DNA of 64,000 bases from Microglena sp. YARC (lineage: Eukaryota; Chlorophyta; Chlorophyceae; Chlamydomonadales; Chlamydomonadaceae), in assembly GCA_022414725.1 (NCBI GenBank), contig CM039462.1, forward strand, positions 81,627,390 to 81,691,389. Direction: 5' to 3'. The notes beneath the pieces are model-generated. The model was not told where the DNA came from and did no database searches. It was given only the letters and a program-made list of their open reading frames with translations. The position numbers and the translations under genes are program-made. Positions 6,894-41,050 of the stretch are shown one piece after another; the stretch's first letter is position 1; each line of letters starts with the position of its first letter.

Positions 6894-7059
6894 CTGAATT
6901 TACCAAGAGAGGCATCCAGGACATCTGCAAAGTCATTGTACGTGAATGTGCTTGGCAGTTTAAGCGCATCCATGATTTTTTTTGTAAAAGTCAACTGCAT
7001 CCAGTTGCGGAACACCAACCACCCCACTGCGTCACGCCATCAATTCCATTCTCCCTAAT

Positions 7060-7879: not shown

Positions 7880-8365
7880 TTGCTCAGGAAGTGGTCTCGC
7901 TCGCTCAGGAACTGCTTGCTCGCATTGCTCAGGAACTGCTTGCTCGCATTGCTCAGGAACTGGTCGCTCGCTCGCTCAGGAACTGCTTGTTCGCATTGCT
8001 CAGGAACTGCTTGCTCGCATTGCTCAGGAACTGCTTGCTCGCATTGCTCAGGAACTGCTTGCTCGCATTGCTCAGGAACTGCTTGCTCGCATTGCTCAGG
8101 AACTGCTTGCTCGCATTGCTCAGGAACTGCTTGCTCGCATTGCTCAGGAACTGGTCGCTCGCTCGCTCAGGAACTGCTTGTTCGCATTGCTCAGGAACTG
8201 CTTGTTCGCATTGCTCAGGAACTGCTTGCTCGCATTGCTCAGGAACTGCTTGCTCGCATTGCTCAGGAACTGCTTGCTCGCATTGCTCAGGAACTGCTTG
8301 CTCGCATTGCTCAGGAACTGCTTGCTCGCATTGCTCAGGAACTGCTTGCTCGCTCGCTCAATCGT
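7880..8365. repeat. 24-bp tandem repeat open in three frames
   Basis: About 19 units of GCTCAGGAACTGCTTGCTCG + CATT, with variants GGTCGCTCGCTC, cover nearly 500 bp. As 24 is a multiple of three and the unit lacks stops, all three plus-strand frames stay open for about 180 codons (for example ELLARIAQ repeats). No domain or upstream signal favours translation. Confidence 0.88.
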
Positions 8366-9300: not shown

Positions 9301-9423
9301 CTGATTTTATGCTCCAATTTTACGTAACACAGGAAACATACCCAAGTCATCCTATGTCATGCTATATATCGTCGTCGTCAGAGGACCAAGGTACATGCAA
9401 TTGTTTGCTTTTAATATTTTGAT

Positions 9424-12225
9424 TGTCCTCATGTGCAGACACCTATTTTTCAGTGTGTTTATTTGTGAAAGATTCTATACATCTTGACAGTTATTTTGAG
9501 TGTCCTCATGTGCAGACACCTATTTTTCAGTGTGTTTGTTTGTGAAAGATTCACTACATTTTGACAGTTATTTTGATTGTCCTCATGTGCAGACACCTAT
9601 TTTTCAGTGTGTTTGTTTGTGAGAGATTCACTACATTTTGACAGTTATTTTGAGTGTCCTCATGTGCAGACACCTATTTTTCAGTGTGTTTGTTTTTGAA
9701 AGATTCACTACATTTTGACAGTTATTTTGAGTGTCCTCATGTGCAGACACCTATTTTTCAGTGTGTTTGTTTTTGAAAGATTCACTACATTTTGACAGTT
9801 ATTTTTATTGTCCTCATGTGCAGACACCTATTTTTCAGTGTGTTTGTTTGTGAAAGATTCTCTACATCTTGACAGTTATTTTGAGTGTCCTCATGTGCAG
9901 ACACCTATTTTTCAGTGTGTTTATTTGTGAAAGATTCTATACATCTTGACAGTTATTTTGAGTGTCCTCATGTGCAGACACCTATTTTTCAGTGTGTTTG
10001 TTTGTGAAAGATTCTCTACATTTTGACAGTTATTTTGATTGTCCTCATGTGCAGACACCTATTTTTCAGTGTGTTTGTTTGTGAAAGATTCTCTACATTT
10101 TGACAGTTATTTTGATTGTCCTCATGTGCAGACACCTATTTTTCAGTGTGTTTATTTGTGAAAGATTCTATACATCTTGACAGTTATTTTGAGTGTCCTC
10201 ATGTGCAGACACCTATTTTTCAGTGTGTTTGTTTGTGAAAGATTCACTACATTTTGACAGTTATTTTGATTGTCCTCATGTGCAGACACCTATTTTTCAG
10301 TGTGTTTGTTTGTGAGAGATTCACTACATTTTGACAGTTATTTTGAGTGTCCTCATGTGCAGACACCTATTTTTCAGTGTGTTTGTTTTTGAAAGATTCA
10401 CTACATTTTGACAGTTATTTTGAGTGTCCTCATGTGCAGACACCTATTTTTCAGTGTGTTTGTTTTTGAAAGATTCACTACATTTTGACAGTTATTTTTA
10501 TTGTCCTCATGTGCAGACACCTATTTTTCAGTGTGTTTGTTTGTGAAAGATTCACTACATTTTGACAGTTATTTTGAGTGTCCTCATGTGCAGACACCTA
10601 TTTTTCAGTGTGTTTGTTTTTGAAAGATTCACTACATTTTGACAGTTATTTTGAGTGTCCTCATGTGCAGACACCTATTTTTCAGTGTGTTTGTTTGTGA
10701 AAGATTCACTACATTTTGACAGTTATTTTGATTGTCCTCATGTGCAGACACCTATTTTTCAGTGTGTTTGTTTGTGAAAGATTCTCTACATTTTGACAGT
10801 TATTTTGAGTGTCCTCATGTGCAGACACCTATTTTTCAGTGTGTTTATTTGTGAAAGATTCTATACATTTTGACAGTTATTTTGAGTGTCCTCATGTGCA
10901 GACACCTATTTTTCAGTGTGTTTGTTTGTGAAAGATTCTCTACATTTTGACAGTTATTTTGATTGTCCTCATGTGCAGACACCTATTTTTCAGTGTGTTT
11001 GTTTGTGAAAGATTCTCTACATTTTGACAGTTATTTTGAGTGTCCTCATGTGCAGACACCTATTTTTCAGTGTGTTTGTTTGTGAAAGATTCACTACATT
11101 TTGACAGTTATTTTGAGTGTCCTCATGTGCAGACACCTATTTTTCAGTGTGTTTGTTTGTGAAAGATTCTCTACATTTTGACAGTTATTTTGATTGTCCT
11201 CATGTGCAGACACCTATTTTTCAGTGTGTTTGTTTGTGAAAGATTCACTACATTTTGACAGTTATTTTGATGTCCTCATGTGCAGACACCTATTTTTCAG
11301 TGTGTTTGTTTGTGAAAGATTCTCTACATCTTGACAGTTATTTTGAGTGTCCTCATGTGCAGACACCTATTTTTCAGTGTGTTTGTTTGTGAAAGATTCT
11401 ATACATCTTGACAGTTATTTTGAGTGTCCTCATGTGCAGACACCTATTTTTCAGTGTGTTTGTTTGTGAAAGATTCTCTACATTTTGACAGTTATTTTGA
11501 TTGTCCTCATGTGCAGACACCTATTTTTCAGTGTGTTTGTTTGTGAAAGATTCACTACATTTTGACAGTTATTTTGATTGTCCTCATGTGCAGACACCTA
11601 TTTTTCAGTGTGTTTATTTGTGAAAGATTCTATACATCTTGACAGTTATTTTGAGTGTCCTCATGTGCGGAACACCTATTTTTCAGTGTGTTTGTTTGTG
11701 TAAGATTCTATACATCTTGACAGTTATTTTGATTGTCCTCATGTGCAGACACCTATTTTTCAGTGTGTTTGTTACTGAAAGATTCACTACATTTTGACAG
11801 TTATTTTGATTGTCCTCATGTGCAGACACCTATTTTTCAGTGTGTTTGTTTGTGAAAGATTCTCTACATCTTGACAGTTGACTCTAGTTATTTTGATTGT
11901 CCTCATGTGCAGACACCTATTTTTCAGTGTGTTTGTTTGTGAAAGATTCTCTACATTTTGACAGTTATTTTGAGTGTCCTCATGTGCAGACCCCTTTTTT
12001 TCAGTGTGTTTGTTTGTGAAAGATTCTCTACATTTTGACAGTTATTTTGAGTGTCCTCATGTGCAGACACCTATTTTTCAGTGTGTTTATTTGTGAAAGA
12101 TTCTCTACATTTTGACAGTTATTTTGAGTGTCCTCATGTGCAGACACCTATTTTTCAGTGTTTTTGTTTGTGAAAGATTCTCTACATTTTGACAGTTATT
12201 TTGATTGTCCTCATGTGCAGACACC
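9424..12225. repeat. 77-bp satellite, about 36 copies
   Basis: The unit TGTCCTCATGTGCAGACACC - TATTTTTCAGTGTGTTTGTT - TGTGAAAGATTC(T/A)CTACATTT - TGACAGTTATTTTGA(G/T) is repeated head to tail for 2.8 kb with few differences. Blocks of differing units recur in the same order (compare 9580-9800 with 10270-10500), so multi-unit segments were duplicated. It is the largest array in the window and holds no gene. Confidence 0.96.
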
Positions 12226-12428
12226 TATTTTGCGGGGCTCCTCCTGCCTTGCACAACTGCTGCTTGTCCATCCCCCCACCCCCTGCGTACAATTAACAAG
12301 AAAAAATTGTGATGAATAGTAAAAATGGATCCTGAGACGGTTGTCCTAGTTGGTGCTGGCACATGACATGAAAATGCTGAATATCGGCTTGTGTATGCAG
12401 ATGAGTGATTACAAGACCTGCATACAAC

Positions 12429-14944: not shown

Positions 14945-15110
14945 AATGGGCGTTCCTGCCTCCCGGCCGATTTCGACTGGTTGCGAAACATGGTATGGAG
15001 CGGATTTGTGATTCCTTGGTGCTGATGTCTCAAGCTAGCGAGTCGTTCAGGAGGCTCTAAATCTTGATTAGAAATTTAAAAAAATCGGCCGGGAGGCAGG
15101 AACGCCCATT
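14945..15110 (+). mobile_element. MITE copy 3 (166-bp family)
   Basis: Full copy with a perfect 4-bp duplication, ACAG (14941-14944 and 15111-15114). The right-hand ACAG is also the start of the TACAGTCAACGG end of another dispersed element, so this MITE inserted at that element's tip. Confidence 0.95.
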
Positions 15111-17233: not shown

Positions 17234-17875
17234 TTACTGGTGTGTAAGGTCCTTGACAAGGGCGTCAAGTGTGTAACACCTGGCGAACGCCGTTTTCACC
17301 TCGGACCTGCAAGATGGACAAGTCTTATCGGTGCAACGATCAAGCCATTTTGAGATGCAGGGTAGACAGAACATATGTCCACACTGAAGCATCTGCGTGC
17401 ACTGGAGAACTCCTTGGCATATCGAGCATGTCAGGTGCTGCCGGATGATGTCCATCAATGCAGAAGGTTGCTCATCCTTATCAATCATGTTGTGGAACAT
17501 GAAGAAGTAGGGGTTGGCAACGCGGGCGCCTGTCTTTGGGTGCAGTACTTCTTCGCAGCCTCCGAAGGAGACCCTATCGTTGGGCTCGAATGTCCAGGTG
17601 TCGGAGGGCGATAGCTTGCACATATTCTTCCCATTGGCGCGGGAGACGTAGGTGCCATTAAGTGAACCTTGGTCAGTCAATGTGGGAGCGCCACAACCGC
17701 CTTGCGGCATCTTGATAATCGCATGTTGCCGTGAGAGGATCGAGGGAACCTCCGGGTCGTCCATGGGGATGGTAGATTTGGAGGTTCTCCCTATCGTGAT
17801 CTCGCCGCTATGCGACATGGTCGCGAGGCTGCGCAGGTCCACGTATACGTGTGGGCGGTTGATGCAATGAAACAT
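17234..17875 (-). CDS. FHA-RING protein, probable E3 ubiquitin ligase
   Basis: 213 residues. FHA domain at about 10-120: ITIGRTSKS (26-34), SRQHAII (48-54) and SLNGTYV (71-77) carry the conserved Gly-Arg, Ser-x-x-His and Asn-Gly that bind phosphothreonine. A C3HC4 RING follows: Cys150/153, Cys165-x-His167, Cys170/173, Cys186/189. FHA plus RING is the arrangement of the cellular ligases RNF8 and CHFR, which recognise phosphoproteins in DNA-damage and mitotic checkpoints. A viral version could redirect host ubiquitination at phosphorylated targets; this is inference. An AAAATTGA box lies 34 bp upstream. Confidence 0.9.
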   Translation of the reverse strand: MFHCINRPHVYVDLRSLATMSHSGEITIGRTSKSTIPMDDPEVPSILSRQHAIIKMPQGGCGAPTLTDQGSLNGTYVSRANGKNMCKLSPSDTWTFEPNDRVSFGGCEEVLHPKTGARVANPYFFMFHNMIDKDEQPSALMDIIRQHLTCSICQGVLQCTQMLQCGHMFCLPCISKWLDRCTDKTCPSCRSEVKTAFARCYTLDALVKDLTHQ

Positions 17876-17908
17876 GGTGATGCTGATTAACAGAATGGGG
17901 AACCGAAA

Positions 17909-17921
17909 TCAATTTTTTTTT
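17909..17921 (-). promoter_or_regulatory. AAAATTGA-type promoter box
   Basis: On the minus strand this reads AAAAAAAAATTGA, 34 bp before the FHA-RING start. It equals the AAAATTGA early promoter of mimivirus relatives. Confidence 0.55.
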
Positions 17922-18037
17922 GTAGCCCATCACGCATCCCTTCAAAATGGAAGCTTCACAAAGGAACAGAGAATCAGCTGGAGTTTTTTGGATACAGTGA
18001 GACAGCAGTTTGACTTTTCATGCTACTTTTTGACATA

Positions 18038-18203
18038 AATGGGCGTTCCTGCCTCCCGGCCGATTTTGACTGGTTGCGAAACATGGTATGGAGCGGATTT
18101 GTGATTCCTTGGTGCTGATGTCTCAAGCTAGCGAGTCGTTCAGTAGGCTCTAAATCCTGATTAGAAATTTTAAAAAATCGGCCGGGAGGCAGGAACGCCC
18201 ATT
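18038..18203 (+). mobile_element. MITE copy 4 (166-bp family)
   Basis: Full 166-bp copy. Flanks are CATA and ATAA, so no clean 4-bp duplication is seen; it may have decayed. It lies between the leaders of the FHA-RING and RNA ligase genes. Confidence 0.93.
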
Positions 18204-18236
18204 ATAAGGCACCACCGACAACTGTATGTTAGTCGA

Positions 18237-19226
18237 ATGCCGGCCTTCATTCCATTTCCCCCGATCCAGCAGTTCAGGAACGTCCTGAAAGAGTTGCCGT
18301 ACGTCTTCGGAAGCGCGATCCCGAAGACGCTCAAGTTCCGAGGCACGGTCAAACTGCACGGGACGCACTCGGACATTGTGAGGCACTTCATTACTGGAAC
18401 CCCTGACTTCGTCGACACCATTCAGTCTCGAAACAGAATCCTGTCAGTCGACAACGACAACCAAGGCTGCCACATGTTTCTGAGTACGAAGAAGTACTCC
18501 GATCTGTTCGATCGTATCCAAGAGATCCATGGAGCAGATATAAGATCGAACATCGTCGTATGTGGCGAGTACTGCGGTAAAGGTGTGCAGAACAAGGTGG
18601 CCCTGTGTAAGCTCGCCAAGATGTTTGTGATATTTGCGATCAGAATAGACTATGAATGGGTTGACATGACCAAGTACAGCACGGTGTTCTGTCAGGAGGA
18701 ATGGATCTTCAACATCATGAACTTTCCGACGTACGAGGTGGAAGTCGACATGAGCGACACGCAGCCCGCGCAAGACTACATGGCGGATCTCACGAACTCC
18801 GTGGATGCAGAGTGTCCGTTCGCGTACCAAATGGCCGGTGTCAAGGGTGGTGGCGAGGGCATCGTGTGGACGTGCGTGGACCACCCATCGTCTCGTCTGT
18901 GGTTCAATACGAAGGGCAAGACGCATTGCACTGCCGTCACGAAGCAAGCGGTGCCTTCGCAGGCAGAGTACATCAAGACTGTGACCGAGTTCGTCGAGTC
19001 CGTCACGACCGAGTCTCGGTTGAGCCAAGGTATCGAGTGCCTGGTTGAACAGGGTGTGGAGTTGCGGATACATAGCGTCTCTGAGTTTTCGTCATGGGTG
19101 TGCCGAGACGTGTTCAAGGAGGAACGAGACACGATCGAAGAAAACGGATTCAATGTGAACGACGTTCGTAAGGCGTTGTACAGGAAAGCAGGGAACTGGT
19201 ACAAACAACGGGTGGCAACCGCATAA
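18237..19226 (+). CDS. RNA ligase (Rnl2-like nucleotidyltransferase)
   Basis: 329 residues. Nucleotidyltransferase motifs appear in order: motif I VKLHGT with the adenylated lysine at residue 39; motif III/IIIa CGEYCGKG (109-116); motif IV EGIVW (207-211); motif V lysines in FNTKGK (223-228). Family members join RNA 3'-OH and 5'-phosphate ends via a covalent AMP-enzyme, often in RNA repair. The C-terminal 100 residues may help bind substrate. The ATG lies 34 bp after MITE copy 4. Amoebal and algal giant viruses commonly carry such ligases. Confidence 0.88.
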   Translation: MPAFIPFPPIQQFRNVLKELPYVFGSAIPKTLKFRGTVKLHGTHSDIVRHFITGTPDFVDTIQSRNRILSVDNDNQGCHMFLSTKKYSDLFDRIQEIHGADIRSNIVVCGEYCGKGVQNKVALCKLAKMFVIFAIRIDYEWVDMTKYSTVFCQEEWIFNIMNFPTYEVEVDMSDTQPAQDYMADLTNSVDAECPFAYQMAGVKGGGEGIVWTCVDHPSSRLWFNTKGKTHCTAVTKQAVPSQAEYIKTVTEFVESVTTESRLSQGIECLVEQGVELRIHSVSEFSSWVCRDVFKEERDTIEENGFNVNDVRKALYRKAGNWYKQRVATA

Positions 19227-19374: not shown

Positions 19375-19750
19375 ATGAGTGACTTTGATAATCGTTTGCG
19401 GCAGCTTGAGGCGGAACAGGCAAACCAGCGTCAGGAGATCCAAGCCTTACGGGATGCCACGTCCACCCAGATCCAGCGCCTGGACAAGGAGATCCAAGCC
19501 GTGCGGGATGCCACGTCCACCCAGATCGAGCGTGAGTTGGAAAGGGCATGGGCCGCGGCGTACCATGAACTGCAAGGGATGTTGACCGATGCTCAGTTGA
19601 CCCAAGTTAAACTGGCAACATTCGGCATGCACAAACTCACACCCCATCTTGCTTGTTGAAAATCCTTGCTTGCAGGCATCAAGACTGTGTTTGAGGCCAA
19701 ACGCTTGCTCGTGCGCACAATCAACCACGTGTGCAAGCCAGGCGACAGTC
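19375..19750 (+). pseudogene. 5' part of a coiled-coil gene split by the transposon
   Basis: The frame starts with a heptad coiled coil with two tandem copies of a 20-residue unit (RDATSTQIQRLDKEIQ). A TGA after LTPHLAC interrupts it (19657-19659); the same frame then continues (GIKTVFEAKRLL) into the transposon's left end. Downstream of the right end (34460 on) the frame resumes in the same phase once one AGTC target copy is discounted. The TGA means the gene may have been broken, or translated in two parts, before insertion. Function unknown. Confidence 0.6.
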
Positions 19751-19780
19751 AATGGGCGTTCCTGCTTCCCAACGGATTTC
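19751..19780 (+). repeat. Left terminal inverted repeat of the transposon
   Basis: AATGGGCGTTCCTGCTTCCC then AACGGATTT; complementary to 34430-34459 with a single C/G difference. Confidence 0.95.
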
Positions 19781-19782
19781 CA

Positions 19783-20072
19783 ATCTTACGATCACTTTTT
19801 GGGGGTCTTTTGATGCTTTCCAAATGCAATCTTACGATAAAAATTGTAAGATTGTAGTCAATTTTGACAAAATATGCTTGAAATGAGCTTGAAAGACGGA
19901 GAAACGTACAGATTGCGAATGTTACAACGTTGAAATGCCATATTTTGTAACAAAAGGTTTTAACATCAATTCGTGTCTTACAATTATAATTGTAAGAAAT
20001 AAAGGGAAAGCGGACGGTTATGAGTTGGCAGGCAGAATTCAGCTTTCACATCTTACAATAAAAATCGTAAGT
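19783..20072. repeat. Left subterminal palindromes
   Basis: Copies of an ATCTTAC(A/G)AT ... AT(T/C)GTAAGAT palindrome lie at 19783 (half), 19828-19855, 19977-20000 and 20049-20072. Matching copies lie near the right end. Such subterminal sites are typically bound by transposase; that role is inferred. Confidence 0.8.
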
Positions 20073-20110
20073 ATAATTCATTAGTAAAAAACGGCTATGT
20101 GTCAAACATC

Positions 20111-23100
20111 TTACTCCTCCTCCTCCCCCCCCTCCTCGTCCTCCTCTTCCTCCTCCTTCTCCTCCTCCATGTCCCCATCCCCATCTTCCTCCTCCTCCAT
20201 CTCCTCCTCCTCAGCAATGTCTGCATTGTCTCCATCCGATTGCACAGCCTCTGCCCTGGTGTCCTTCTCAATGGATTGACAAGCTAGGAGCATGCTTGTG
20301 TGGTACTTTCTCTGGATCTTCATACCCTTGGTGGGTTCGCAGCTAAATTGAAATGCGTCAATGGGAATATCGCCCGTCCATGTTGCTTTTCTCCTAACCC
20401 CCACGGTAATAGGCACAAGCTTGTGGTCCATCCAATCTTCTGGCCAAGTTGGGTATTGTGTTTCAGTATACACCAACTTCTGAGCCCCAGAGTACAAGGG
20501 CTTTAAATACACACATTCCACTTCTCCATTCACTGGTAGTGATTTGACCTCCACCACGTCCCATCCTCTCAATCCGCTAGAGTCATCCATTTGTACCTTG
20601 ACCACAGCGACATGACCAACAACCAAATCAGTAGTGGGCTCGTAGGCTATTCTTCTATCCGGCTTCGTCCCTTGTGAAGAATATAAGTACAACACATCCT
20701 CCTCCTCTGGCCTTTCCATATTAGTCTCCAAAGTGTGTGCGACCTTCATAGTCTTGGCAATCTCGTTACTTGCAGGTAAAATGTCTGACACATCCATGGA
20801 CAAGTCATCCAATGCTGCTATCAAGCGCTTGGCCATTGATTTCTCAGACTGTGTCAGAACACGACTGGTTGCTGACAACTCCGATGGGAAGTCGACAAAA
20901 TGTTGGTCTTTCGGGTACTCCCCAGTCACAGCATCATCTGGTTGAGTGCTCCAATAACTCTTCTCAACGTTGAAGAAATCAGTCCACCACTTATTGCTGG
21001 CTTCCCAAGTTTCACGAAGCTTCTCGGCAATATGTTTGAAGGACTGGGCATGGGATGGGCCATCGGCTGCTGGTTCATCCATCGGCTGCTGGTCATCGGC
21101 AGCTGGTTCTAGAAGGTCCTCCGCTGCGTGTCGTACACGGACATCAGCTACGGGTCCTGCACGGTCGTCACCGGCGGTTTGTACAGGACCATCGGCCATG
21201 TGGCCTGCAAGGACGTCACCTCCGGGCTTCTCGTTATGAATAGTCTTCCAGACAGCCGCCCAGTTTGCCTCGATATTCTCGAGCTCTTCAATCTTGATCT
21301 TGGGGCTTCCTTAAATACTGTTCTGGTGTCCACCAGTGGGAAGCCTTGGAGGACGTAAATAGGTTCAGCGTCATTGTCCCACTGTCCTCTCCAAGATCCT
21401 GACTCGTCATACTCCTTGTAATAGACCCCTGCAATTGTTGGTGTGCAAACATGTATTGTATATTAGTGAATCATTTAGGACACCCATATTCCTCCCGACT
21501 ATACTCGGGAGCATCCCTTGGATAATACATCCTAGGTCCTAGGTACAACTTCCTTTGTATCATTTAATTCATATTGAAGACTGTACATGTAAATCAATGA
21601 GGACATGGTGACTACAGCTAGCTTCTGCGTACGCTGTGGTGTCCTTAATCTCACGTCCCTAGAGTATTTATATTTCTTGGATGTAACAATTTCAATTTCA
21701 ATTTCAATGAGGACATGGCACACCCATATTCCTCCCGAGCATAATCGGGAGCATTGTGCAGACAGTACATACACGCACGGTAGCATTTAATTTGTAAATA
21801 TCAGTATATCAAGTATTCTTACCGACTCTCCCGTTGGGACCTTTCGTTATCTTGAATGCGTGTAAACGGCGATTAACTCCTTTGACGGTGCTAGTGCCAT
21901 GACCGAACAACTTGTAAACGTTGTCTAGGAGGACAGCGGAGAAGTCCCCTATAGAGGTCACGACGTCTTGCCTTGTGTAAGGGCCCATTTTCTTGAATAA
22001 GTTACCAACAATGCCCATCAGATGGTCCAGGGTGTACACTTCCATGTTCTTTAACCCTTGCGAGATCACAGAGTACTTTTGGTCAAGATTGCTATGTGTG
22101 TGTCCGGGAGGGAGGAAATGGACGTACACTTCCTCAAACCAGTTCATCTCAACCAACAAGGACAAGTATGCGAACATGAAAGCGTTCTTGTTGTCCTTTG
22201 CCGCGTTGTCCATTTGCAAGAAGCAATACGGTGGAAGCTGCCCCTCTTCTTCAAGGACCCGGTTGAAGAAATGTTGGAAGCATGATATAGTCAGATTGAT
22301 GGACTGCGAGTAGAATGGCAAAGCCCAATAACCAATGAAGCCTCTTCCCTGGGAGAATAATCCTGAGTTAACATAGAAGGAAACATGAAGTCAGAATATT
22401 AGCATGAGAATATTATCATTAGTTGACTTACTTTTTGTTAAGTAATCATTTCAAGTTTTAAATACTGTGTATGCTCCCGATTATGCTCGGGAGGACATGT
22501 CCTACATGCGCTGTATTTGTACTCACCCATGATGCGTGTCTTTAGAAGTTCACCTCCTGCGGTCTTCTTTGTATGTGAGAAGTGGCGTGACTGAGAAAGA
22601 TTAGTCTTCTTGTTGTCCATTGCATCAGCGGATGCGTGCAAGAAGAGCTTCGGATACTGTTCAGACAGTTTTTCACGGATGTCATACCTACGCCGACCAA
22701 TGGAAATCTGATTACGGTGCACAGCCTGACTCTGACGAAGTTCATCAACTGCTGGCTGAAACGTAGTGGTCAGGAGTCTGGCTCGGTACTTGACGCAGTC
22801 GTCGCACTTGGCAAAAAGCTGCCAAGTCTTTATCTTCACGTTCCACCAATGTGCATGCCATAGTTTACGCAAACTGCTGTATAATGTTCTGGGAGGAACC
22901 ATGCCGTTCTTCTTCATGTCCCTAAAGACAGCTTGCTTGCTTGGAAATATGCCGCAATGTAAAAAAATCAAAGGGCGCATGACCTTAGATTTTTTCCTTC
23001 CTCTAGATCCTGGAGCATATGAAGTCTGGTGCGGCATTGACTCCCCAAACTCATCTACGAGAGATTTCATCGCAGCGTTGAAATTGTCCCTCAACACTGC

Positions 23101-23959
23101 GGGTGCACTCCTCTTCCTCCTCACCTTCACAGCAGGTTCAAACCTAGACAGGGTCCAATGGAACGAGGTTAGGTCGCTTATTGTTATGGATGCTCCCGAT
23201 TATAATCGGGAGGGTAGAATGGATCATTATACGGTTGCCTGATGTATTGGGTTGTCCCGAGCATAATCGGAAGGAAGCAAAGTGCACTGTAACCACATGA
23301 GAATTCGGGATAACTTACTCTCTGTTGTTTTTGATCTGACCACTTATCGCTAGCCATGCATTTGAACCGATTACGGATGCAGCCTGATAAAATGACTTGC
23401 AAACGTCAACGCCCAATATCCTGAACGAGCAAAAGAATCGTTAAGTTCGAGTCATAATACATTTCAAAAATCTTTAGGCGCATCAGGCGCATCAGGCGCT
23501 TCAGGCGCAAGATCAAATTATTGACAACCTACCTTTGTGAGTAACGGTTCTACACGGATGTAACAATTTCAAATTTCAAATTACAACCTACCTTGTCGAC
23601 ACACTCCTTGTCCCTGTCTTGCGATCCCGCTTGCTTGCCAGTGCATTCAATTCGATGTAGCATCGACGTTGCCTTTCGGCAGGTTCGAGCTCGGCGAATT
23701 CATTTCGTCGTTCGCGAATTACATCCTGTGGGAGTACCAAGTGACATGTGTTCTTGCACTTACAGGTAATAAGCTTGTCGAATTGATTCACGGTATCAGA
23801 GTTGGTAACTATGTCGCTCTCTTCGGCTGGCACGGTTTCGATCGCATCGTCGCCACTGGAATTCTCGAAATCTAGTTGTCGACGTCGAGGTACCGGCAAC
23901 ATAGGCTCAACCCAGTGGTGTATGCCCAATCCAATTCCTCGGGAAGGGGTAGCGTCCAT
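20111..23959 (-). CDS. DUF7869-like transposase, five exons, one frameshift
   Basis: Exons (coding order): 23959-23592, 23420-23319, 23143-22527, 22362-21823, 21428-20111. All four introns have GT...AG ends (donors GTAGGT, GTAAGT, GTGAGT, GTAAGA) and phases match at each junction. About 980 residues. Exon 3 has a CxxC-like KCDDC and ASADAMDNKKT; exon 4 has LQMDNAAKDNKN and FLPPGHTHSNLDQ. These match the DUF7869 pattern in which spaced Asp residues could form an RNase H-like catalytic triad (inference). The C-terminus is a long Glu tail. In exon 5, a one-base loss near the CCCC run at 21300-21312 is needed to pass from the exon 4 frame to the long C-terminal frame. Without it the protein would end early. 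Confidence 0.82.
21437..21822 (-). repeat. Transposase intron 4 with two palindromes
   Basis: The 394-bp intron (21429-21822) carries GCTCCCGATTATGCTCGGGA and GCTCCCGAGTATAGTCGGGA, each followed by GGAATATGGGTG. Introns 2 (23144-23318) and 3 (22363-22526) also carry one or two copies; intron 1 (23421-23591) carries none. Confidence 0.85.
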
Positions 23960-24289
23960 TTTGCCCCTTCCCCTCAAAGAAACTAAGCCTGCCAAGATGA
24001 TAAGAAGGAATCGACAGTGGGCCTGCCGTCGGGTGAGTGATCGCGGAACCCGGGGCCAGCCAAATGTACCGGGGTCGATCTGTACCGCTACCAGCAGACT
24101 AGACCGGGACCAGCAACTTCCGACTATACTCGGGAGCTTTGACATAGACCGGGCCTAGCAAACTGCAAGGGCTAATACTGTAAGAATCAATTCGGGAACA
24201 CAAGACTGTATTTTGCAGTACGTGAATAACTAGAGGCCATAGTTCGACGCTGTCCAAGGTCCTATCAGTTTGCTTGCTATGTCGGTATT
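23960..24289. promoter_or_regulatory. Divergent promoter region of the transposon
   Basis: The 330 bp between the two divergent starts contains one half-decayed intron-type palindrome (CCGACTATACTCGGGAGC, 24121-24138). An in-frame extension of transposase exon 1 to 24145 is possible, so a short upstream exon or leader intron cannot be excluded. Confidence 0.5.
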
Positions 24290-27200
24290 ATGCCGCCGAA
24301 GGACCCTGACGAGGTGAATTCTTTTAAGAGACCCCTTCTTCCTAACTTCCAACCTACGCAAACCGATTCACGTCGTAAACAAACGCGGAGAGACATTTTC
24401 TCCAACTTCGTAACAACCCATTCAAGGGTTGTTCCCGGGAAAATACCTAAGCAGCAACCTGTGCAACCTAAACCTTTACGCTCTGGTGCTGTAGCTACCC
24501 AGCCTGCGCAACCTCGACGACCAGCTGCAGTGCCTGCGCAACCTCGACAACCAGCTGCAGTGCCTGCGAAACCTCGACTGTTGCAACCTAGGACTCTGTC
24601 CTTCAATACAGTTGAGAGCTTTGCGAACAGTAGCATGTCCCCTCCAAAAGGTGGTGGTGTCACAAGCAAGTCTAAACAAGTCCGTGCAGCAGAAAACTTA
24701 CCTGAGGAACGTACACCAGGAGCTGATGCGGTAACACGTGAAGGGGTAAGAGAGGGGCCACCACAACAACCACCTATTGGTTGGGTTGAAGGACCTCACA
24801 ACCCTGATGGACCCCTTGGATTTACCGAGATCGCCAGAGATGAAAGTGATGCAGACTCCAAATTGTATTGGGCACCATATGTCACCTTCACCTACGTGGG
24901 TAATGAAGAGGATCGATTAGGCGTGCACAAGATAGGTATCGTCGCATGGGACAGTGAACGAGATGCGCTTCTTCGCAAGGGTAGGAAGTCCCCCTATCAG
25001 CTCTGCATAGACGACTTGATGGACTATGGCGGAAGGACAGAACAAGATGGAAAGCAAATCTTTATTCCGTGCCCGGCTATAGTCAAGTAAGTTCAGATGG
25101 GTGTTGCTTATTAATTTGGACTGCATGTATTCTGAGTACATGTTTTCTGTATCATTCTCTTGTTGGGTTTGTCAATGCTCCCGATTATGATCGGGAGGAC
25201 TGTGCGTATTCCGAGTACATGTTTTTTGAATCATTCGCTCGTTTGGTTTGTCAATGCTCCCGATTATGATCGGGAGGACTGTGTGTATTCCGAGTTCATG
25301 TTTTCTGTATCATTCGCGCGTTGGGTTTGTCAATGCTCCCGATTATGATCGGGAGGACTGTGTGTATTCCGAGTACATGTTTTCTGTATCATTCTCTCGT
25401 TGGGTTTGTCAATGCTCCCGATTATGATCGGGAGGACTGTGTGTATGCCGAGTACATGTTTTCTGTATCATTCGCGCGTTGGGTTTGTCAATGCTCCCGA
25501 TTATGATCGGGAGGACTGCATGTATTCTGAGTACATGTTTTCTGTATCATTCTCTTGTTGGGTTTGTCAATGCTCCCGATTATGATCGGGAGGACTGTGC
25601 GTATTCCGAGTACATGTTTTTTGAATCATTCTCTTGTTGGGTTTGTCAATGCTCCCGATTATGATCGGGAGGACTGTGCGTATTCCGAGTACATGTTTTT
25701 TGAATCATTCGCTCGTTTGGTTTGTCAATGCTCCCGATTATGATCGGGAGGACTGTGTGTATTCCGAGTTCATGTTTTCTGTATCATTCGCGCGTTGGGT
25801 TTGTCAATGCTCCCGATTATGATCGGGAGGACTGTGTGTATTCCGAGTACATGTTTTCTGTATCATTCTCTCGTTGGGTTTGTCAATGCTCCCGATTATG
25901 ATCGGGAGGACTGTGTGTATGCCGAGTACATGTTTTCTGTATCATTCGCTCGTTGGGTTTGTCAATGCTCCCGATTATGATCGGGAGGACTGTGTGTATT
26001 CCGAGTACATGTTTTCAGTATCATTCGCGCGTTGGGTTTGTCAATGCTCCCGATTATGATTGGGAGGACTGTGTGTATTCCGAGTACATGTTTTCTGTAT
26101 CATTCGCGCGTTTGGTTTGTCAATGCTCCCGATTATGATCGGGAGGACTGTGTGTATTCCGAGTTCATGTTTTCTGTATCATTCGCGCGTTGGGTTTGTC
26201 AATGCTCCCGATTATGATCGGGAGGACTGTGTGTATGCCGAGTACATGTTTTCTGTATCATTCTCTCGTTGGGTTTGTCATTGCTCCCGACTACGATCGG
26301 GAGGACTGTGTGTATGCCGAGTACATGTTTTCTGTATCATTCTCTCGTTGGGTTTGTCAATGCTCCCGACTACGATCGGGAGGACTGTGTGTATGCCGAG
26401 TACATGTTTTCTGTATCATTCTCTCGTTGGGTTTGTCAATGCTCCCGACTACGATCGGGAGGACTGTGTGTATGCCGAGTACATGTTTTCTGTATCATTC
26501 CCGCGTTGGGTTTGTCAATGCTCCCGATTATGATCGGAGGACTGTGTGTATTCCGAGTACATGTTTTCTGTATCATTCTCTCGTTGGGTTTGTCAATGCT
26601 CCCGACTACGATCGGGAGGACTGTGGGTTTTTCTCTACATAATCTGAATCATTTGCTCTACCAACCTATTTGTCTTACGCAGCGTCCACGATGACGGTAC
26701 CGTGGAAGTAAAAGTCAACGCGGGCGAGCAGGTTTTGGGATGCGGTGTCATGGACGAATGGACCAAGGCGCGCCAAGAGCCAATGAACATTGAAGTCGTT
26801 GCTGGTGGACCAGCCTTCAATGTTACGGCTACGCACTCTCACTGGTTGAGGTTTCGCGGCGAATGCAGGCCAATGTGTGGAGCTGATGCTTTCTGGTCGA
26901 CACTCACCCTTGCGGGATCCAAGCCAGCCCAGATGAAGTTACTAGCGTTCGGAGGCCCATGTCTGGAGCCCTATCAAGCATACCAGTTCACATTCTCGCT
27001 CTACTCATGGTGGTATAAAATGCGCGGACCTTCTGTTAGCGTCGGCAAGGGCGGATTTATCGCCGACAAAGACCTGGTGGAAAGTAAGGCGTGGGTTGAG
27101 ACATGCGAAGGAAAGCTCGGGAACGATTTCAAGGACTTTGGTCCTGGCGACAGGAGGTCACCTCGATCTTTACAAAAACAGCCTTCACCTGACGCCGGTA

Positions 27201-30200
27201 AGAGAGCAATCGAACGGACTGTACTGGTGCACCACGGCTCAGGTCGAATTTTCAAATCTGACAGGTACATTTTGAATATTACGTACGCTGTGAGATGTAC
27301 ACCGTTCGAAACAACCATTGTGTCCTGACCGCAACTGCCGCTTTCAAATTCGATAGGATATTGCGTAACTTCCGCACTCTTTCCATTTCCTTCAGGCTCC
27401 GCGAAGAAGGCAGGAAGGAAGCGACGAGATCAGCCCACTACAATCAACGAAGAGGGCAGATCGCCGACAACTTTGTAAGTTCATCGTATTCAAATTGTTA
27501 TCTCCTTTCGCAATCAATCACTCGTTCAGCGTGAATGAACCATTGCAGTCAAGTCTATTCCCTGAATCGTAGTCATGTCGATCGCATCAACTTACACACG
27601 CGCGTCACTGATTTTGAATACCGTCCTCCTTGGGCGTTCCGGTTATAGTCGGGAGGACTTCGGTCCTCCTTGGGCGTTTTGTTGTTATCTCCTTTCGCAA
27701 TCGATCACTCGTTTGCGTGAATGAACCATTGCAGTCAAGTCTGTTCCCTGCATCGTAGTCATGTCGATCGCATCAACTTAAACACGCGCGTCACTGATTT
27801 TGAATACAGTCCTCCTTGGGCGTTCCGATTATAGTCGGGAGGACATCGGATGTTCAATGTTCAATCTTCCGCAATCTTATCAAATCAACTAAGTCAATGC
27901 TCCCGATTATAGTCGGGAGGACACTGGATGTTCAATGCTCAAACTTCCGCAATCTTTCACTTATCAAGTATGTCAATGCTCCCTAGTATAATCGGCAGGA
28001 CTCTGGATGTTCAATGCTCAATCTGCAGCAATAATTTACCAATCAACTATGTCAATGCTCCCGAGTATAATCGGCAGGACACTGGATGTTCAATCTTCAA
28101 CCTTCCGCAATAATTTACCAATCAACTATGTCAAAGCTCCCGAGTATAGTCCGGAGGACATCGGATGTTCAATGTTCAATCTTCCGCAATCTTATCAAAT
28201 CAACTAAGTCAATGCTCCCGATTATAGTCGGGAGGAAAATGGATGTTCAATGCTCAAACTTCCGCAATCTTTCACTAATCAAGTATGTCAATGCTCCCGA
28301 GTATAATCGGCAGGACTCTGGATGTTCAATGCTCAATCTGCAGCAATAATTTACCAATCAACTATGTCAATGCTCCCGAGTATAATCGGCAGGACACTGG
28401 ATGTTCAATCTTCAACCTTCCGCAATAATTTAACAATCAAATATGTCAAAGCTCCCGAGTATAGTCGGGAGGACATCGGATGTTCCATGTTCAATCTTCC
28501 GCAATCTTTTCTAATCAACTAAGTCAATGCTCCCGATTATAGTCGGGAGGACACTGGATGTTCAATGCTCAAACTTCCGCAATCATTCACTAATCAAGTA
28601 TGTCAATGCTCCCGAGTATAATCGGCAGGACACTGGATGTTCAATGCTCAAACTTCAGCAATCATTCACTAATCAAGTATGTAAATGCTCCCGAGTATAA
28701 TCGGCAGGACACTGGATGTTCAATCTTCAATCTTCAGCAATAATTTACCAATCAACTATGTCAAAGCTCCCGAGTATAGTCCGGAGGACATCGGATGATC
28801 AATGTTCAATCTTCTGCAATCTTATCTAATCAACTAAGTCAATGCTCCCGATTATAGTCGGGAGGACACTGGATGTTCAATGCTCAAACTTCCGCAATCA
28901 CTCACTAAACAAGTATGTCAATGCTCCCGAGTATAATCGGCAGGACACTGGATGTTCAATCTTCAATCTTCCGCAGTAATTTACTAATCAACTAAGTCAA
29001 TGCTCCCGATTATAGTCGGGAGGACATCGGATGTTCAATGTTCAATCTTCCGCAATCTTTTTCTAATCAACTAAGTCAATGCTCCCGATTATAGTCGGGA
29101 GGACACTAGATGTTCAATGCTCAAACTACCGCAATCATTCACTAATCAAGTATGTCAACTCTCCCGAGTATAATCGGCAGGACACTGGATGTTCAATGCT
29201 CAAACTTCCGCAATCATTCACTAATCAAGTATGTCAATGCTCCCGAGTATAATCGGCAGGACACTGGATGTTCAATCTTCAATCTTCCGCAATAATTTAC
29301 CAATGAACTATGTCAAAGCTCCCGAGTATAGTCGGGAGGACATCGGATGTTCAATGTTCAATCTTCCTCAATCTTTTCTAATCAACTAAGTCAATGCTCC
29401 CGATTATAGTCGGGAGGACACTAGATGTTCAATGCTCAAACTACCGCAATCACTCACTAATCAAGTATGTCAATGCTCCCGAGTATAATCGGCAGGACAC
29501 TTGATGTCCAATCTTCAATCTGCCGCAATAATTTACCAATCAACTATGTCTATGCTCCCGAGTATAATCGGCAGGACACTGGATATTCAATGTTTAATAT
29601 TCCGCAATATTTCTGTAATCAACTATGTCAATGCTCCCGACCATAGTCGGGAGACACTGGATGTTCAATGTTCTGACCCCTCACTAAGTCAGATATGTTT
29701 TATCAATCCCTTCAGGTTTGCTGATCCCAAGAAGAACCCTGCTGGACACGAGGGCAAAGGCAAGCGTGCTGCGTCGCAGGCTGCAGACAATGCACCAGCC
29801 GCAAAGAAACAAACTCCTGTACCCGAACACAAGATTCATTCCTTGGAGGAGGATTCAGACTTGAACTCAAGAAGTTCTGTCGACACTGTGCCCGGGCCAT
29901 CTGACGACGATGATGCACCCAAAACCGCTCCTAAGAAAAGAGGTCGCGGTCAGCCTGGTTCTCAGAAGAAGACTATGTGGAAAGCGAAGAGATCACCGGC
30001 AGGAGAGAAGAAAGGGGACAGCATTGGAAACATCGAAGGTGATTTGGCTAAGGCTAAGGCTTTCCTGACCGACAAGCATTTTGGTGGAGAGCATTCATTG
30101 GACTGCACGAAGTTCCTCCCTCCAAAGCTACCTGTCAGAATCCGTGTGTTGGACCCTGTTCGAGTCGATCAACTCCTCGCCAATTTTTTGAAAACCACAA

Positions 30201-33200
30201 TGGCCACTGGGAAGGTATTGTTCATGGACATCAGCAAGGACCTGAAGAATGTATCTCCAGGTTGGGCTAATATTGATCCAAGCAGGCTGGAACAGACGTT
30301 CAACAACATCTCCAATGTGAAAGGGGAGTTTGGCGAGCCATGGATCATCGGAGGGTACCACAGCTCCCAAGCCTTCATCAAGTGGGCAGCAGACCGCCCT
30401 GGTGAAATTCCTCTGCGCAATTGCTTCGTGTACCGGTTGTCAGAGGTGGAGGGTGCCACGTACGACGAGAAGCTTCAGAACGCTCGCCTCCTTTCCCTTT
30501 TGGACAACACAAGCGGCCAGTCGACTGAGGGGTACGACTCTCAGCCATTTTTGGTTTCTACCTTCCTGTGGCGTGAATTGTACCTTCAGGCAGGCTGTCC
30601 CGCTCGGACTGAGAAGGGGCATCAGTCAGACCAGTACAACAACTTCAAAACTCTGTGTGTCACCGGGGACGAGAAGTTGACGAAGTCTGTTGCTAGCCAG
30701 GGGGGTGCCACCGTGCCACGCTTCAAAGTCGTGAGCTTGGACGAAGAGTCCTACAAGAAGGCTTTCCTGATCATGTCCTCCATGGACGACCGGGAGAAGA
30801 TCGGCGCCGACCACCTTGTTGAGCGCCTGCAGAACGTGGAGCCTCCGCCTCCGCCAAACGATGAGGAGGAAGAGGAGGGGGACGACGAGGAAGCTGCACC
30901 TGGATCCCATGGGAAAAGGGCTAAGGGAAAGGCTAAGGACAAGATGAGGTCGGTCCTCGTTGAGGACATGAAGGAAACTATGAAGCTGCCACCTGGAGAG
31001 CTGAAGTTCTTCCTGAAGTCCGTGACCGACGACTTGTATGTCCACGAGTATGAAGCTTTCAAGATCAAGGACGAAGTGGACAATGTCGCGTTCACTACCG
31101 CGGTAGGTTCATGTTGTATATTAAGTTATTTTCAGACATGATCGGGATGATTGTGATGAAGTACGGTGGTGTGCCATTTTTCGTTATTGACAGCGATTCA
31201 CTTCTCGCATTGGACGATGCTTCCGAGTATGATCGGGAGGACTGTGGGTGTGCCATGTCTCGTTATTGACATAAATTCACTTCTCGCTTTGGACGATGCT
31301 GCCGAGTATGATCGGGAAGACTGTGCGTGTGCCATATCTAGTTATTGACGGCGAATCCCTTCTTGCATTGGATGATGCTGCCGATTATGATCGGGAGATG
31401 CTTCCTAGTATGATCGTTATCATGACAAGAAAACTCTTTTATTCGCAGACGTTTGCATCGGCATACAAGGCTTCGTTGGTTCATTACAAGACAGAAGTGT
31501 CAGCGGGCTTCGTCATCTACATCATCGACAGGCTTCTCAAGCAACACAATGTCTCGCCTGTGTCCTTTCGTGACGACTTGAAGTTACGCTTCAATTCTGG
31601 TTCGCCGCTTGACCTTGAGGCAAAGGGCTTCACGCACATGCACGCCTTCTTGGGCAATAACGCGGAACCCGCCGTTACCAACAAACCCCTTCCGCTGGTT
31701 GGCATCGCCTTCAGCAGCAAGGCAGCTTCTGAAATCTTGATCGGGGGCATTCGATCCGATGCTTCGATTCCCGCACATCAGGTCTTCTCCGGGTGGCTGA
31801 GGGACTATACCGCCCAGAGAAGGGATTGGTATGGTATACCACCTAGGGATGAAGTTTTGATGCCCAAGCTAACCATCACCGAGGTCACGCAAGTGGGAGG
31901 TCTGCTGAGTTTCGCGACAGACAAGGAAGCGCTAAACCAGCTTCTCGACAGGTGGTTTTCTGTGATCAGGACAAGGGTCCAGCAAAAAAACCAGGCACAG
32001 ATTATCAGTACCCTGGCCGCTAGCATTGACGACATGAAGTTGCTAGTTCAGCCTGACCAGGAGTACCCAATGGCGACAGACGGCCTCCAACAACCAATCT
32101 GTGATGATATGTCCAAGTTCCTCGAGGCCTGCCGTGAACTGCTTTTCGCACACCCCATTCCGCCTCGCAGTATCCATCTCGATGCGTTGAACACCATCAG
32201 GGGAGTCGTGGGTTTCCTCGTCATGGACTTAACAAGGCGGAGGAAAGATGGAGCAGCAGGGATTCCGATGTTGAACCTGACAGAGGAGGTCTTGTTGTCA
32301 TTGGCAGTAAAGTACGGTGATTTGCCAGTGTGGAAAAGGGGAGAGCCTTCCGAACGCTTTTTCCGTCTCTACGATGGTGGACAGATGTATCCACACCTGA
32401 TGTCGGCAGCTACAGCAGTGTTCATGGACGCTGACCACCAGATTGGAGCCGGTCGGGTCCAGCTAGAGACGGCAACAGTCAGCGCGCACCTTTACAACAT
32501 GAAGGCGAAAACATTCCAGTGTGATGAAATCCGTAAGGTGCGTAGATGTTTAAAATGATAGACTACAAGTTGAAAAGTTGACGCTCCCGATCATAATCGG
32601 GAGGATGATGTGTTAAGCATGTCTTTTCACCACTTCAAAATCCATTACACATAATCCTTCCGATCACAGTCGGGAGCATCACGTTGTTCAACTTGTCTTC
32701 CAACCCATAATCTAACTGACTTGTACATATTTCGTTTACTCTTGCAGGTGCCTGGCAAACTGATCGACTTGGTGATCATCGACCCCTGTCTCACTGGCGA
32801 TGAAAAGGGACCGTTGTGGCTCGTCGATGAAGACTCTTGGAGTTCGACTGATGTGATCGACATGCTGCGGAACTTAGCAGGCCAGAATCGGAAGTTTGCC
32901 TCAGTGTGCCATGTGGTCGTGTACACCAACCAAGAGGAAGGCAGCAGGTTCCTTGTGGCTTTCAGAGAAGCTGGCGTGGCTGACATTCGCCTTACCCACA
33001 TTACACGCATGGGGCCAGACTTCAAGACACATTCCACCAGCATCGCCATCTCTGGGATCTTGCATCAAGGTGCGGGACAAGCGGGCCCGTCCTCGAAAGC
33101 TTCCATTTCTTCTTCTGGTCTTGCCGCTGCCATCACGGTCTTCCTACCGCCTATTGACGCACAGAAAAGTGCCATTGGACGCCCCGACATTAGCGGCTGC

Positions 33201-33776
33201 TCGATGAGTCCCAAACAAGTTGGATACCGCAGGAGAAGTGTCGCCGAATTCCGTCACTTTGTGCGGGAGCTTAGCTCCGTTGGCAACTATGTGATGTGCA
33301 TGCAAGCTGGCGATGCCTCGGGCATGCTAGCGGCTTTGCTAGAGAGGAGGAACGCCATTGGCTTGGACTGTATCACTCAGAAGCTTGGGGCTGCTGCATG
33401 GCGTTTGAACATGTTTGCAAAAACGGAGCAGGCTATTCTATCACGTCTCGAAGCCTGTACTGATGCAGATGATGAAACAAGGGTGAGGACGGCGGTACTG
33501 GTTCAGGAAGACATTGACGCAGAGTTTCGCGACAACCCTGCTGAGCCCAGTGAGGAAATGATGCAAAAGCTAGAGACGTGTCTCCAGACATATCGCGAGA
33601 AGAAAGCCGCAGATTGGCCTGAGGACGAGTTCGAGGCCTGCAAGGAGAAGGTTCTGGAAAGCTGCATCAGTGCAGGAACAGTAAAAGGGCTGATGAGGAC
33701 CAAGAAGTTAGATTTAGCCCTCGTTGGGTTGCGTGCCAACTTGTTCCCAGAGCAAGACGAGTCAGTTAGCACATGA
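24290..33776 (+). CDS. Six-exon transposon protein, ParB-like and methyltransferase-like segments
   Basis: Exons: 24290-25086, 26683-27264, 27396-27474, 29693-31102, 31449-32537, 32748-33776. Lengths total 4,986 nt and every junction keeps frame; donors are GTAAGT, GTACAT, GTAAGT, GTAGGT, GTGCGT and acceptors end in CAG. About 1,661 residues. Exon 1 begins with a Pro/Gln-rich disordered tail. Exon 4 has a basic linker, then a ParB-like segment (VRIRVLDPVRVDQLLANF, IIGGYHSSQAF, NARLLSLLDN) and an acidic stretch. Exons 5-6 contain a segment like an adenine methyltransferase core (KLIDLVIIDPC in the motif IV position, then CHVVVYTN). Both domain calls are by pattern and tentative. The start of exon 4 is the acceptor that fits phase; the stronger-looking acceptor at 29715 does not. 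Confidence 0.8.
25170..26625. repeat. Intron satellite 1: 79-bp units with palindrome
   Basis: About 19 head-to-tail 79-bp units, each with GCTCCCGATTATGATCGGGA + GGAC followed by TGTGTGTATTCCGAGTACAT, fill intron 1 of the plus-strand gene. Blocks of six units (474 bp) recur: 25160 on is repeated at 25634. Some late units have CGACTACGATCGGG, keeping the stem paired with compensating arms. Confidence 0.95.
27620..29665. repeat. Intron satellite 2: 79-bp units with palindrome
   Basis: About 25 units of about 79 bp fill intron 3, with GCTCCCGATTATAGTCGGGA + GGAC or GCTCCCGAGTATAATCGGCA + GGAC, joined by GGATGTTCAATGCTCAAAC. Only the palindrome is shared with intron satellite 1; the linker sequence is unrelated, so the arrays amplified independently. 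Confidence 0.95.
31103..31448 (+). repeat. Plus-gene intron 4 with palindrome repeats
   Basis: This intron contains about four degenerate 79-bp units (GCTGCCGAGTATGATCGGGA). Intron 5 (32538-32747) has two (CTCCCGATCATAATCGGGAG at 32584). Intron 2 (27265-27395) has none. Confidence 0.88.
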
Positions 33777-34318
33777 TCTGTCAGCACTAAGTGCAGAAGT
33801 TAGCACCAATGGACTTGTTGGCAGCAGTTCAACATTAGCATTGTGCACAAGTTTCACGAGTGTACTTGTTTGCACCATCCAACACACATTTTGAGTGATT
33901 TCAGGATTCTAGGATGGCAGGTTGCAGATTTCAGGATTTAAATTTGTGTTATGTACATAATGAGCTTATGAGGTATGAAATTATGAATAATAAGTCCTGA
34001 GTTAGGAGTTATTAGTTCTGACTTGTATAAGGTACATATAAGTTCTGAGTTGTGAGTTATAAATTATGAGGTACACATAAGTACAGATTTCGGAGTCGTA
34101 AGTACTAAGTTGTAATTTTGAACTGTTGAGTTGTGAGTTGTGAGATAAATAATTATGAGCAATGCGTTCAAGACTTTGTAAACAGCTTTCACCTTCCTCT
34201 TGACTGTCCTCTACAATTGATTTTGTATTCCAATACTTTCTCTCTCTCCAAACGAGCAAATCAATGTTACAATTGAAATTGAAGGGAATAGTCTCTTTCT
34301 CAGGAATACAACAAAACA
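33777..34318 (+). other. Transposon right-end noncoding region
   Basis: This AT-rich stretch has many loose copies of GAGTTGTGAGTTAT and TAAGTTCTGAGTT. No gene is seen; it is the 3' flank of the plus-strand gene. Confidence 0.6.
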
Positions 34319-34417
34319 ATCTTACAAAATAAATTGTAAGATATTTTCGTAAAAGCCACCAAAAAAGCAAAATCAATTAATTTGCGAAAACGATCTTACA
34401 ATATTTATCGTAAGATT
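34319..34417. repeat. Right subterminal palindromes
   Basis: ATCTTACAAAATAAATTGTA + AGAT at 34319 and ATCTTACAATATTTATCGTA + AGAT at 34391, the same family as the left-end palindromes at 19783-20072. Confidence 0.8.
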
Positions 34418-34429
34418 TCAGTAAAATAA

Positions 34430-34459
34430 AAAATCCGTTCGGAAGCAGGAACGCCCATT
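34430..34459 (-). repeat. Right terminal inverted repeat of the transposon
   Basis: AAATCCGTTCGGAAGCAGGA then ACGCCCATT, the complement of the left end, followed by the target duplication AGTC. Confidence 0.95.
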
Positions 34460-34708
34460 AGTCTCCCCACCAGTGGATCGACGACTCTGGTCTGGCCGAA
34501 GCGCAACATGCCCCTCGATGGGAGCAGCACGCGCCGTCTCTGCGTCCTCTACGAGTCAGACTGCGAGATCCTGAAATGCTACAAGGAGGACGCTCGATCC
34601 ACCTACACATCCGACCACGCGTCGCATGCGCCTGCTCTGTGCATGGATGCCATCCAGAAGTATCTTGCTAACGCAAACCCTAGCCTCTTGAACGACTCGC
34701 TAGCTTGA
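34460..34708 (+). pseudogene. 3' part of the coiled-coil gene split by the transposon
   Basis: The frame continues in phase from 19750 through TTLVWPKRN and CVLYESDCEILKCYKED. Its last eight codons (SLLNDSLA) are supplied by the truncated MITE that follows, so the original 3' end has been replaced. This half has ordinary codon use and no stops. Confidence 0.6.
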
Positions 34709-34793
34709 GACATCAGCACCAAGGAATCACAAATCCGCTCCATACCATGTTTCGCAACCAGTCAAAATCGGCCGGGAGGCAGGAACGCCCATT
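34683..34793 (-). mobile_element. Truncated MITE (copy 5)
   Basis: The right two thirds of the MITE, from AGCCTCTTGAACGACTCGCT to CGCCCATT. The left 55 bp and one TIR are missing. Confidence 0.9.
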
Positions 34794-40885: not shown

Positions 40886-41050
40886 TACCATACCATACCA
40901 TACCATACCATACCATACCATACCATACCATACCATACCATACCATACCATACCATACCATACCATACCATACCATACCATACCATACCATACCATACCA
41001 TACCATACCATACCATACCATACCATACCATACCATACCATACCATACCA
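40886..41050. repeat. (TACCA)n microsatellite
   Basis: About 33 perfect copies of the pentamer TACCA. Every frame is open on both strands because the unit lacks stops in this phase; no gene. Confidence 0.97.

Follow-up and report, generated by a model that had tools for sequence, protein, structure and literature searches.

A 14.7-kb DUF7869 transposon with an opposite-strand partner gene and intronic palindrome arrays in Microglena sp. YARC

Sola1 transposons make a 4-bp target duplication. Ectocarpus Sola1-1_Ec32 is a giant DNA transposon of 21.5 kb that carries, on the strand opposite to its transposase, a gene of 1,104 amino acids with ParB-like and DNA methyltransferase (N4mC or N6mA) parts (PMC12477816). 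The accessible text of that paper, citing Iyer et al. 2011 and Petroll et al. 2025, refers to ParB-methyltransferase transposon proteins in green and red algae and proposes that such accessory proteins bind and modify their own transposon; it was the only paper found in our literature search on ParB genes in transposons. Duplications of 4 bp are also described for Sola2, including elements of Dictyostelium and Polysphondylium that carry Fanzor1 (PMC3627910, accessible part). Here we describe an element of 14,709 bp, at positions 19751-34459 and flanked by AGTC on both sides, in a stretch of 64,000 nucleotides from the green alga Microglena sp. YARC (GCA_022414725.1, contig CM039462.1, positions 81,627,390 to 81,691,389), hereafter the window.

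We are nearly certain that this region is a DDD transposon. Our overall account, to which we give a probability of about 0.75, is that of a eukaryotic cut-and-paste DNA transposon with a DDD transposase (gene 1) and an accessory gene (gene 2). Its resemblance to Sola1-1_Ec32 (PMC12477816, as far as accessible) lies in a large gene on the strand opposite to the transposase and found with it, a likeness of layout. The element differs in being only 14.7 kb long with a larger partner gene (1,591 amino acids), in lacking a profile-level ParB match, with only a weak methyltransferase trace, and in its intronic palindrome arrays, a feature unmentioned for Sola1-1_Ec32 in the accessible text. The Fanzor1-bearing Sola2 elements (PMC3627910, accessible part) share with it the 4-bp duplications, the short terminal inverted repeats (TIRs) and a passenger gene beside the transposase, but their duplications are AT-rich and their passenger gene is a different one.

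Ends, copies and target duplications

The ends of the element in the window are as follows.

19747-19750: left target-site duplication, AGTC, identical to 34460-34463 (read directly)
19751-19779, plus strand: left TIR, 28 of 29 bases identical to the right TIR
19830-19851, 19976-19997 and 20051-20072: subterminal palindromes of the left end (pattern search)
34320-34341 and 34394-34415: subterminal palindromes of the right end (pattern search)
34431-34459, minus strand: right TIR, 28 of 29 bases matching the left TIR
34460-34463: right target-site duplication, AGTC

A preliminary description of this DNA, made from its letters alone, had reported TIRs of 29 bp, a perfect 4-bp AGTC duplication and subterminal palindromes at both ends, and our analysis agreed on all three. 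By repeat finding, the TIR match extends over 39 nt at 87%. In the window as a whole, TCTTACNAT(N4)ATNGTAAGA palindromes number five at up to two mismatches, against 0.05 expected, and all are inside the element's two ends (three left, two right).

The assembly comprises 568,105,699 bases in 2,390 contigs, and the window belongs to its contig C1, which is 194.9 Mb long. The outer 15-mer AATGGGCGTTCCTGC was found in this assembly 1,985 times in forward and 1,940 times in reverse orientation, and a reversed control pattern 0 times in either. Copies were compared in their best-scored part (the best 40 of 597 candidate left ends, the best 40 of 496 candidate right ends and the best 150 of 788 candidate DUF7869 exons), which makes the co-occurrence counts given below lower bounds and biases the identities upward. 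With the window included, the left 355 bp are at least 98% identical in all 40 scored copies and the right 290 bp are listed at 100% identity in all 40, with 32 tying at the top score. The copies are spread over contigs C1-C6 and several smaller ones. The family is high-copy, very young and recently, perhaps still, active. Among 30 left-end loci, 19 run unbroken for about 1.85 kb of the element and one has a small gap; the other 10 jump elsewhere in the element and are internally deleted or rearranged copies. Taken as the distance between ends, with interiors only partly read, the length is 13,663-14,709 bp in eight long copies and 1,637-8,917 bp in five deleted ones.

Right ends were searched for in 16 regions, of which four (L138, L143, L144 and L150) had none and one (L147) showed the end of a nested copy; in 11 narrow regions the end was reached only in L127 and L131. 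Thirteen copies, window included, could be read at both ends, and nine of these have perfect 4-bp duplications (AGTC, TAGT, CTAG, AGTG, GTAT, CCCA, CCAG, ATAT and ATAG), the flanks being imperfect in L111, L118, L119 and L123. Two more copies were chosen as expected to be informative, not randomly. One (L151, 9,077 bp) is flanked by TGTT. The other is nested (C2:88269233-88280013) within gene 2 of the copy at C2:88257056, with ...TTTTCGCACAC before it and ACACCCCATTCC... after it; the window copy provides the empty site, reading TTTTCGCACACCCCATTCC unbroken, so that the 4-bp duplication, here ACAC, is directly shown. In total, 11 of the 15 copies read at both ends have a perfect duplication of 4 bp, the length that marks the Sola superfamily, and no common target sequence was seen among the duplications read. 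Further copies with the same ends and 4-bp duplications, proposed in the preliminary description as its check, do exist, and the locus combines the TIRs, constant-length duplication and empty site of a DNA transposon.

The outer ends are shared by much smaller elements. At up to three mismatches, AATGGGCGTTCCTGC has 21 matches in the window (1.65 expected); they comprise nine pairs, a single truncated unit and two matches that have nothing to do with these. Beyond the ends of the large element, eight inverted pairs form one family of miniature inverted-repeat transposable elements (MITEs) of 158-166 bp; six have perfect 4-bp duplications, and in the other two the flanks differ.

3140-3304: MITE, flanks ATAT/ATAG
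7060-7225: MITE, duplication TAAT
14945-15110: MITE, duplication ACAG
18038-18203: MITE, flanks CATA/ATAA
38265-38430: MITE, duplication CATT
46137-46302: MITE, duplication GAAT, one mismatch at one end
53127-53292: MITE, duplication AAAT
63035-63192: MITE, duplication AAGT, two mismatches and a short deletion at one end
About 34678-34793: truncated ninth MITE

The transposase gene and its partner

The two divergent multi-exon genes that had been proposed could both be modelled with GT..AG introns, as predicted splice models.

20111-21428, minus strand: gene 1 last exon; the frame shifts near 21,300 in the window copy
21823-22362, minus strand: gene 1 exon 4, DUF7869 with conserved acidic residues 2 and 3 (QMDN, GHTHSNLDQ) (Pfam and alignment)
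22527-23143, minus strand: gene 1 exon 3, with conserved acidic residue 1 (ADAMDNKK) (splice model, alignment)
23319-23420, minus strand: gene 1 exon 2 (splice model)
23592-23959, minus strand: gene 1 exon 1, start codon and Cys-containing segment (splice model)
24290-25086, plus strand: gene 2 exon 1 (splice model)
26683-27156, plus strand: gene 2 exon 2 (splice model; junction with exon 3 matches EukProt gene model P0002)
29716-31102, plus strand: gene 2 exon 3, with the segment called ParB-like (splice model; ParB by eye)
31449-32537, plus strand: gene 2 exon 4 (splice model); the copy at C2:88257056 carries a second family copy at the point corresponding to about 32153
32748-33776, plus strand: gene 2 exon 5, perhaps the remnant of an amino-methyltransferase (weak NCBIfam match)

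The QMDN...GHTHSNLDQ pattern had been taken as DUF7869-like, and exon 21823-22362 indeed matched DUF7869 (PF25273) with an E-value of 8.6e-36 and 123.8 bits against a gathering cut-off of 26. The predicted structure of a gene-1 relative has the integrase/Mos1 RNase H fold, and by this model and the alignment gene 1 has both the RNase H-like core and the three acidic residues of a DDD/E transposase. Given the domain match and the fold of the relative's model, gene 1 is very probably a DDD transposase. The Holothuria DUF7869 (PF25273) protein P0025 has the same domain and the same three acidic positions at 29% identity. Taken together, PF25273, the relative's fold, the copies and the empty site uphold the earlier proposal that this is a large DNA transposon, one that makes duplications of 4 bp and has a transposase of the DUF7869 kind. 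The RNase H-type model also offers a structural argument that DUF7869, a domain of "unknown function", is a DDD transposase core.

KDZ/Zisupton elements have an 8-bp duplication; membership was rejected as the duplications here are of 4 bp and Pfam listed no KDZ domain for the scanned gene-1 pieces. Academ elements are marked by an XPG nuclease or helicase domain, to which the nine open reading frame (ORF) pieces scanned had no Pfam match at E≤1.

Gene 2, which lies on the plus strand, encodes 1,591 residues in the five coding exons of our splice model, where 1,660 had been given before. The name "ParB-like" was not confirmed. By eye, GGYHSSQAF in exon 3 resembles the ParB signature, but exon 3 gave no family at E≤10 in Pfam, NCBIfam or PHROGs; a comparison of gene 2 with phage P1 ParB left it unsupported (hhalign probability 6%). 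Sequence searches of the PDB with gene-2 pieces returned nothing significant, the best tblastn match among phages had an E-value of about 2, and structure prediction for a gene-2 exon gave a predicted local distance difference test (pLDDT) value of 33. Relatives of exon 3 are rare, with six in a set of 5.8 billion proteins (best 7,998 candidates scored) and three matches in a second protein search; the two distant ones are P0004 and P0005 (45-54%). The last exon matched PRK13699, an NCBIfam DNA methyltransferase, weakly (E 0.039, residues 146-228, 13.6 bits against a cut-off of 244), and an adjoining antitoxin model was equally weak (E 0.052). By eye, this exon has a DP motif and then a glycine-containing motif, the order of the beta class; methyltransferase activity is doubtful because DPCL stands in place of DPPY.

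Gene 2 is often found beside the transposase gene. In the host genome, 106 stretches of its exon 3 were listed (best 92 of 386 candidates), 87 loci once merged. At least 40 of the 106 stretches (32 of the 87 loci) have a DUF7869 exon in divergent orientation no more than 14 kb away, against one in the other orientation, which bears out the earlier pairing of the two genes for a good part of the copies. A listed right end lies downstream of 29 of the 106, at 2,992-3,076 bp in 16 cases (control 0). Among the best 40 of 597 candidate left ends, 22 have a correctly oriented gene-2 exon at up to 16 kb and 1 has it in the opposite orientation, 12 have a DUF7869 exon at 1,588-1,720 bp (control 0) and 14 have a listed right end no more than 20 kb away (control 0). 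In the reverse direction, listed gene 2 was in place for 32 of the 150 listed DUF7869 exons, a figure that is partly an effect of the best-scored lists. Internal stops are present in 33 of the 106 gene-2 stretches; in six of the 40 paired ones the adjoining DUF7869 exon is stop-free, a combination that fits an accessory gene.

In the copies at C3:19394672, C5:18843266 and C1:103503957, the gene-2 exon has an identity of 63-81% and contains 5-12 stops (TGA in 17 of 23), and the adjoining DUF7869 exon is 98-99% identical and open, suggesting that gene 2 is decaying there, perhaps via C-to-T change. The copy L151 (C1:1714553-1723629) has the same ends and a DUF7869 exon; it is without gene-2 exons 3-5, gene-1 exons 1-2 and most of gene-1 exon 3, and contains 23 exact 20-bp palindromes of the type described below as well as an inverted duplication in the region of gene-2 exon 2. 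With those gene-1 exons gone this copy is non-autonomous, and it therefore proves nothing about whether gene 2 is dispensable.

Palindrome arrays in the introns

The most interesting part of the element, and the part that is new here, is a set of 54 palindrome copies in introns and one promoter gap. The 20-bp palindrome CTCCCGA(N6)TCGGGAG (CTCCCGANNATNNTCGGGAG) has 48 sites in the element at up to one mismatch, where shuffles gave an expectation of 0, and 54 at up to two. The coding exons of the splice models, 52% of the element, hold none of these 54, and at least one is present in seven of the eight introns and in the inter-gene (promoter) gap, which holds a single site. At up to two mismatches the palindrome is absent from the element's two ends and from the remaining 49.3 kb of the window; exact copies are likewise absent from eight 3-kb loci (two overlapping; 24,120 bases) around other TIR matches and, at seven further loci, from about 49 kb lying beyond the element. 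Introns 1 and 2 of gene 2 hold 43 of the 54 sites, together with tandem arrays of a 79-bp unit.

25118-26625, plus strand: 79-bp tandem array in gene 2 intron 1, an intron with 19 palindromic sites
27825-29673, plus strand: 79-bp tandem array in gene 2 intron 2, an intron with 24 palindromic sites
31168-31397, plus strand: three 79-bp units in gene 2 intron 3, an intron with 3 palindromic sites

The arrays probably expand and contract, since they occupy introns 1 and 2 and the gene-to-gene distance varies among copies from 3,951 to 12,889 bp.

We give even odds to the palindromes being RNA hairpins, or an introner-like or satellite unit that multiplies within introns and does no harm there since splicing removes it, and not protein sites. 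The distribution over introns and coding exons is as such a unit would have it, the unit as RNA folds into a hairpin (-13.0 kcal/mol) and 79-bp tandem arrays are the product expected of unequal crossing-over; the site between the divergent genes, however, lies outside the introns, and a DNA palindrome is equally compatible with a dimeric protein site. It seems unlikely that the element carries its own parS-like system, in which the gene-2 protein would bind the palindromes and form a self-marking nucleoprotein platform against silencing or for amplification. If it did, the intron placement would keep the sites off the messenger RNA and the tandem units would raise their number.

Classification and surroundings

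In the cut-and-paste account that we favor, the gene-1 product, a DDD transposase with an RNase H-type core, would bind the TIRs of 29 bp and possibly also the subterminal palindromes, excise the element and reinsert it with a 4-bp stagger, of which the duplication itself is observed. The same or a sister transposase may mobilize the internally deleted copies and the MITEs of about 165 bp that have the outer ends in common. Gene 2 would most likely be an accessory that acts on the element's own DNA, a counterpart of the ParB-methyltransferase proteins in algal Sola1-type transposons, and the 20-bp intronic palindromes are the best candidate binding sites for its protein. We consider that gene 2 probably belongs to this known algal type and that the superfamily is, by a small margin, most likely a Sola1-like one.

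A less probable but serious alternative is that the element belongs to a superfamily of its own, an unnamed group of DUF7869 transposases with 4-bp duplications whose partner gene was independently acquired or is superficially alike. Our literature search on the name DUF7869 found no paper, and the few relatives of the gene-2 exon in the two protein searches, with no recognised domain, also point this way. Against it stand the opposite-strand gene layout shared with Ectocarpus Sola1-1 (PMC12477816) and a length of duplication that Sola elements also have (Sola2, PMC3627910), both as given in the accessible texts. The preliminary description had called the element a possibly undescribed type and inferred a new group of large DNA transposons. 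It had itself named a classified superfamily with the same TIR, duplication length and gene pair as evidence to the contrary, and for the gene layout this applies in outline. The palindrome arrays are new as variant features, but the layout matches Sola1-1_Ec32 in outline (PMC12477816, accessible part), and because of this match the design itself probably lacks novelty; "undescribed type" probably overstates the case for what looks like a new variant of the large transposons that have a partner gene on the opposite strand.

Being young and abundant, the family lets the accessory-gene idea for algal Sola1 elements be tested, as it offers many near-identical copies, open and broken gene-2 exons, an empty site read directly and a defined sequence as candidate binding site.

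It is highly improbable that this is a viral element (giant virus or Polinton-like) or, as the preliminary description had it, a transposon carried by a viral genome: the flanking ORFs include RCC1 repeats, FHA-RING, RNA ligase and ankyrin, kinds common in large DNA viruses, but the copies are distributed across many contigs of a 568-Mb assembly, whose size and 195-Mb contig indicate a eukaryote and not a virus. One exon of gene 2 and one of gene 1, each scanned against IMG/VR as a single protein, a search that covers close relatives only, had no relative there, and the 15-base end matched 85 IMG/VR stretches, the 80 listed each having a single match and none being paired. On assembly size, copy spread and the lack of IMG/VR relatives in these scans, viral origin was rejected.

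The surroundings of the element in the window include two groups of ORFs, of which the first is possibly virus-derived, and several tandem arrays.

17234-19226: FHA-RING ORF (minus strand) adjoining an RNA-ligase ORF (Pfam E 2.7e-8)
46462-52699: adjacent pair of ORFs of 1,343 and 756 amino acids with many RCC1 repeats
5220-6899: tandem array, 106-bp unit
7877-8360: tandem array, 24-bp unit
9415-12231: 77-bp tandem repeat, 36.5 copies
40886-41050: tandem array, TACCA in 33 copies

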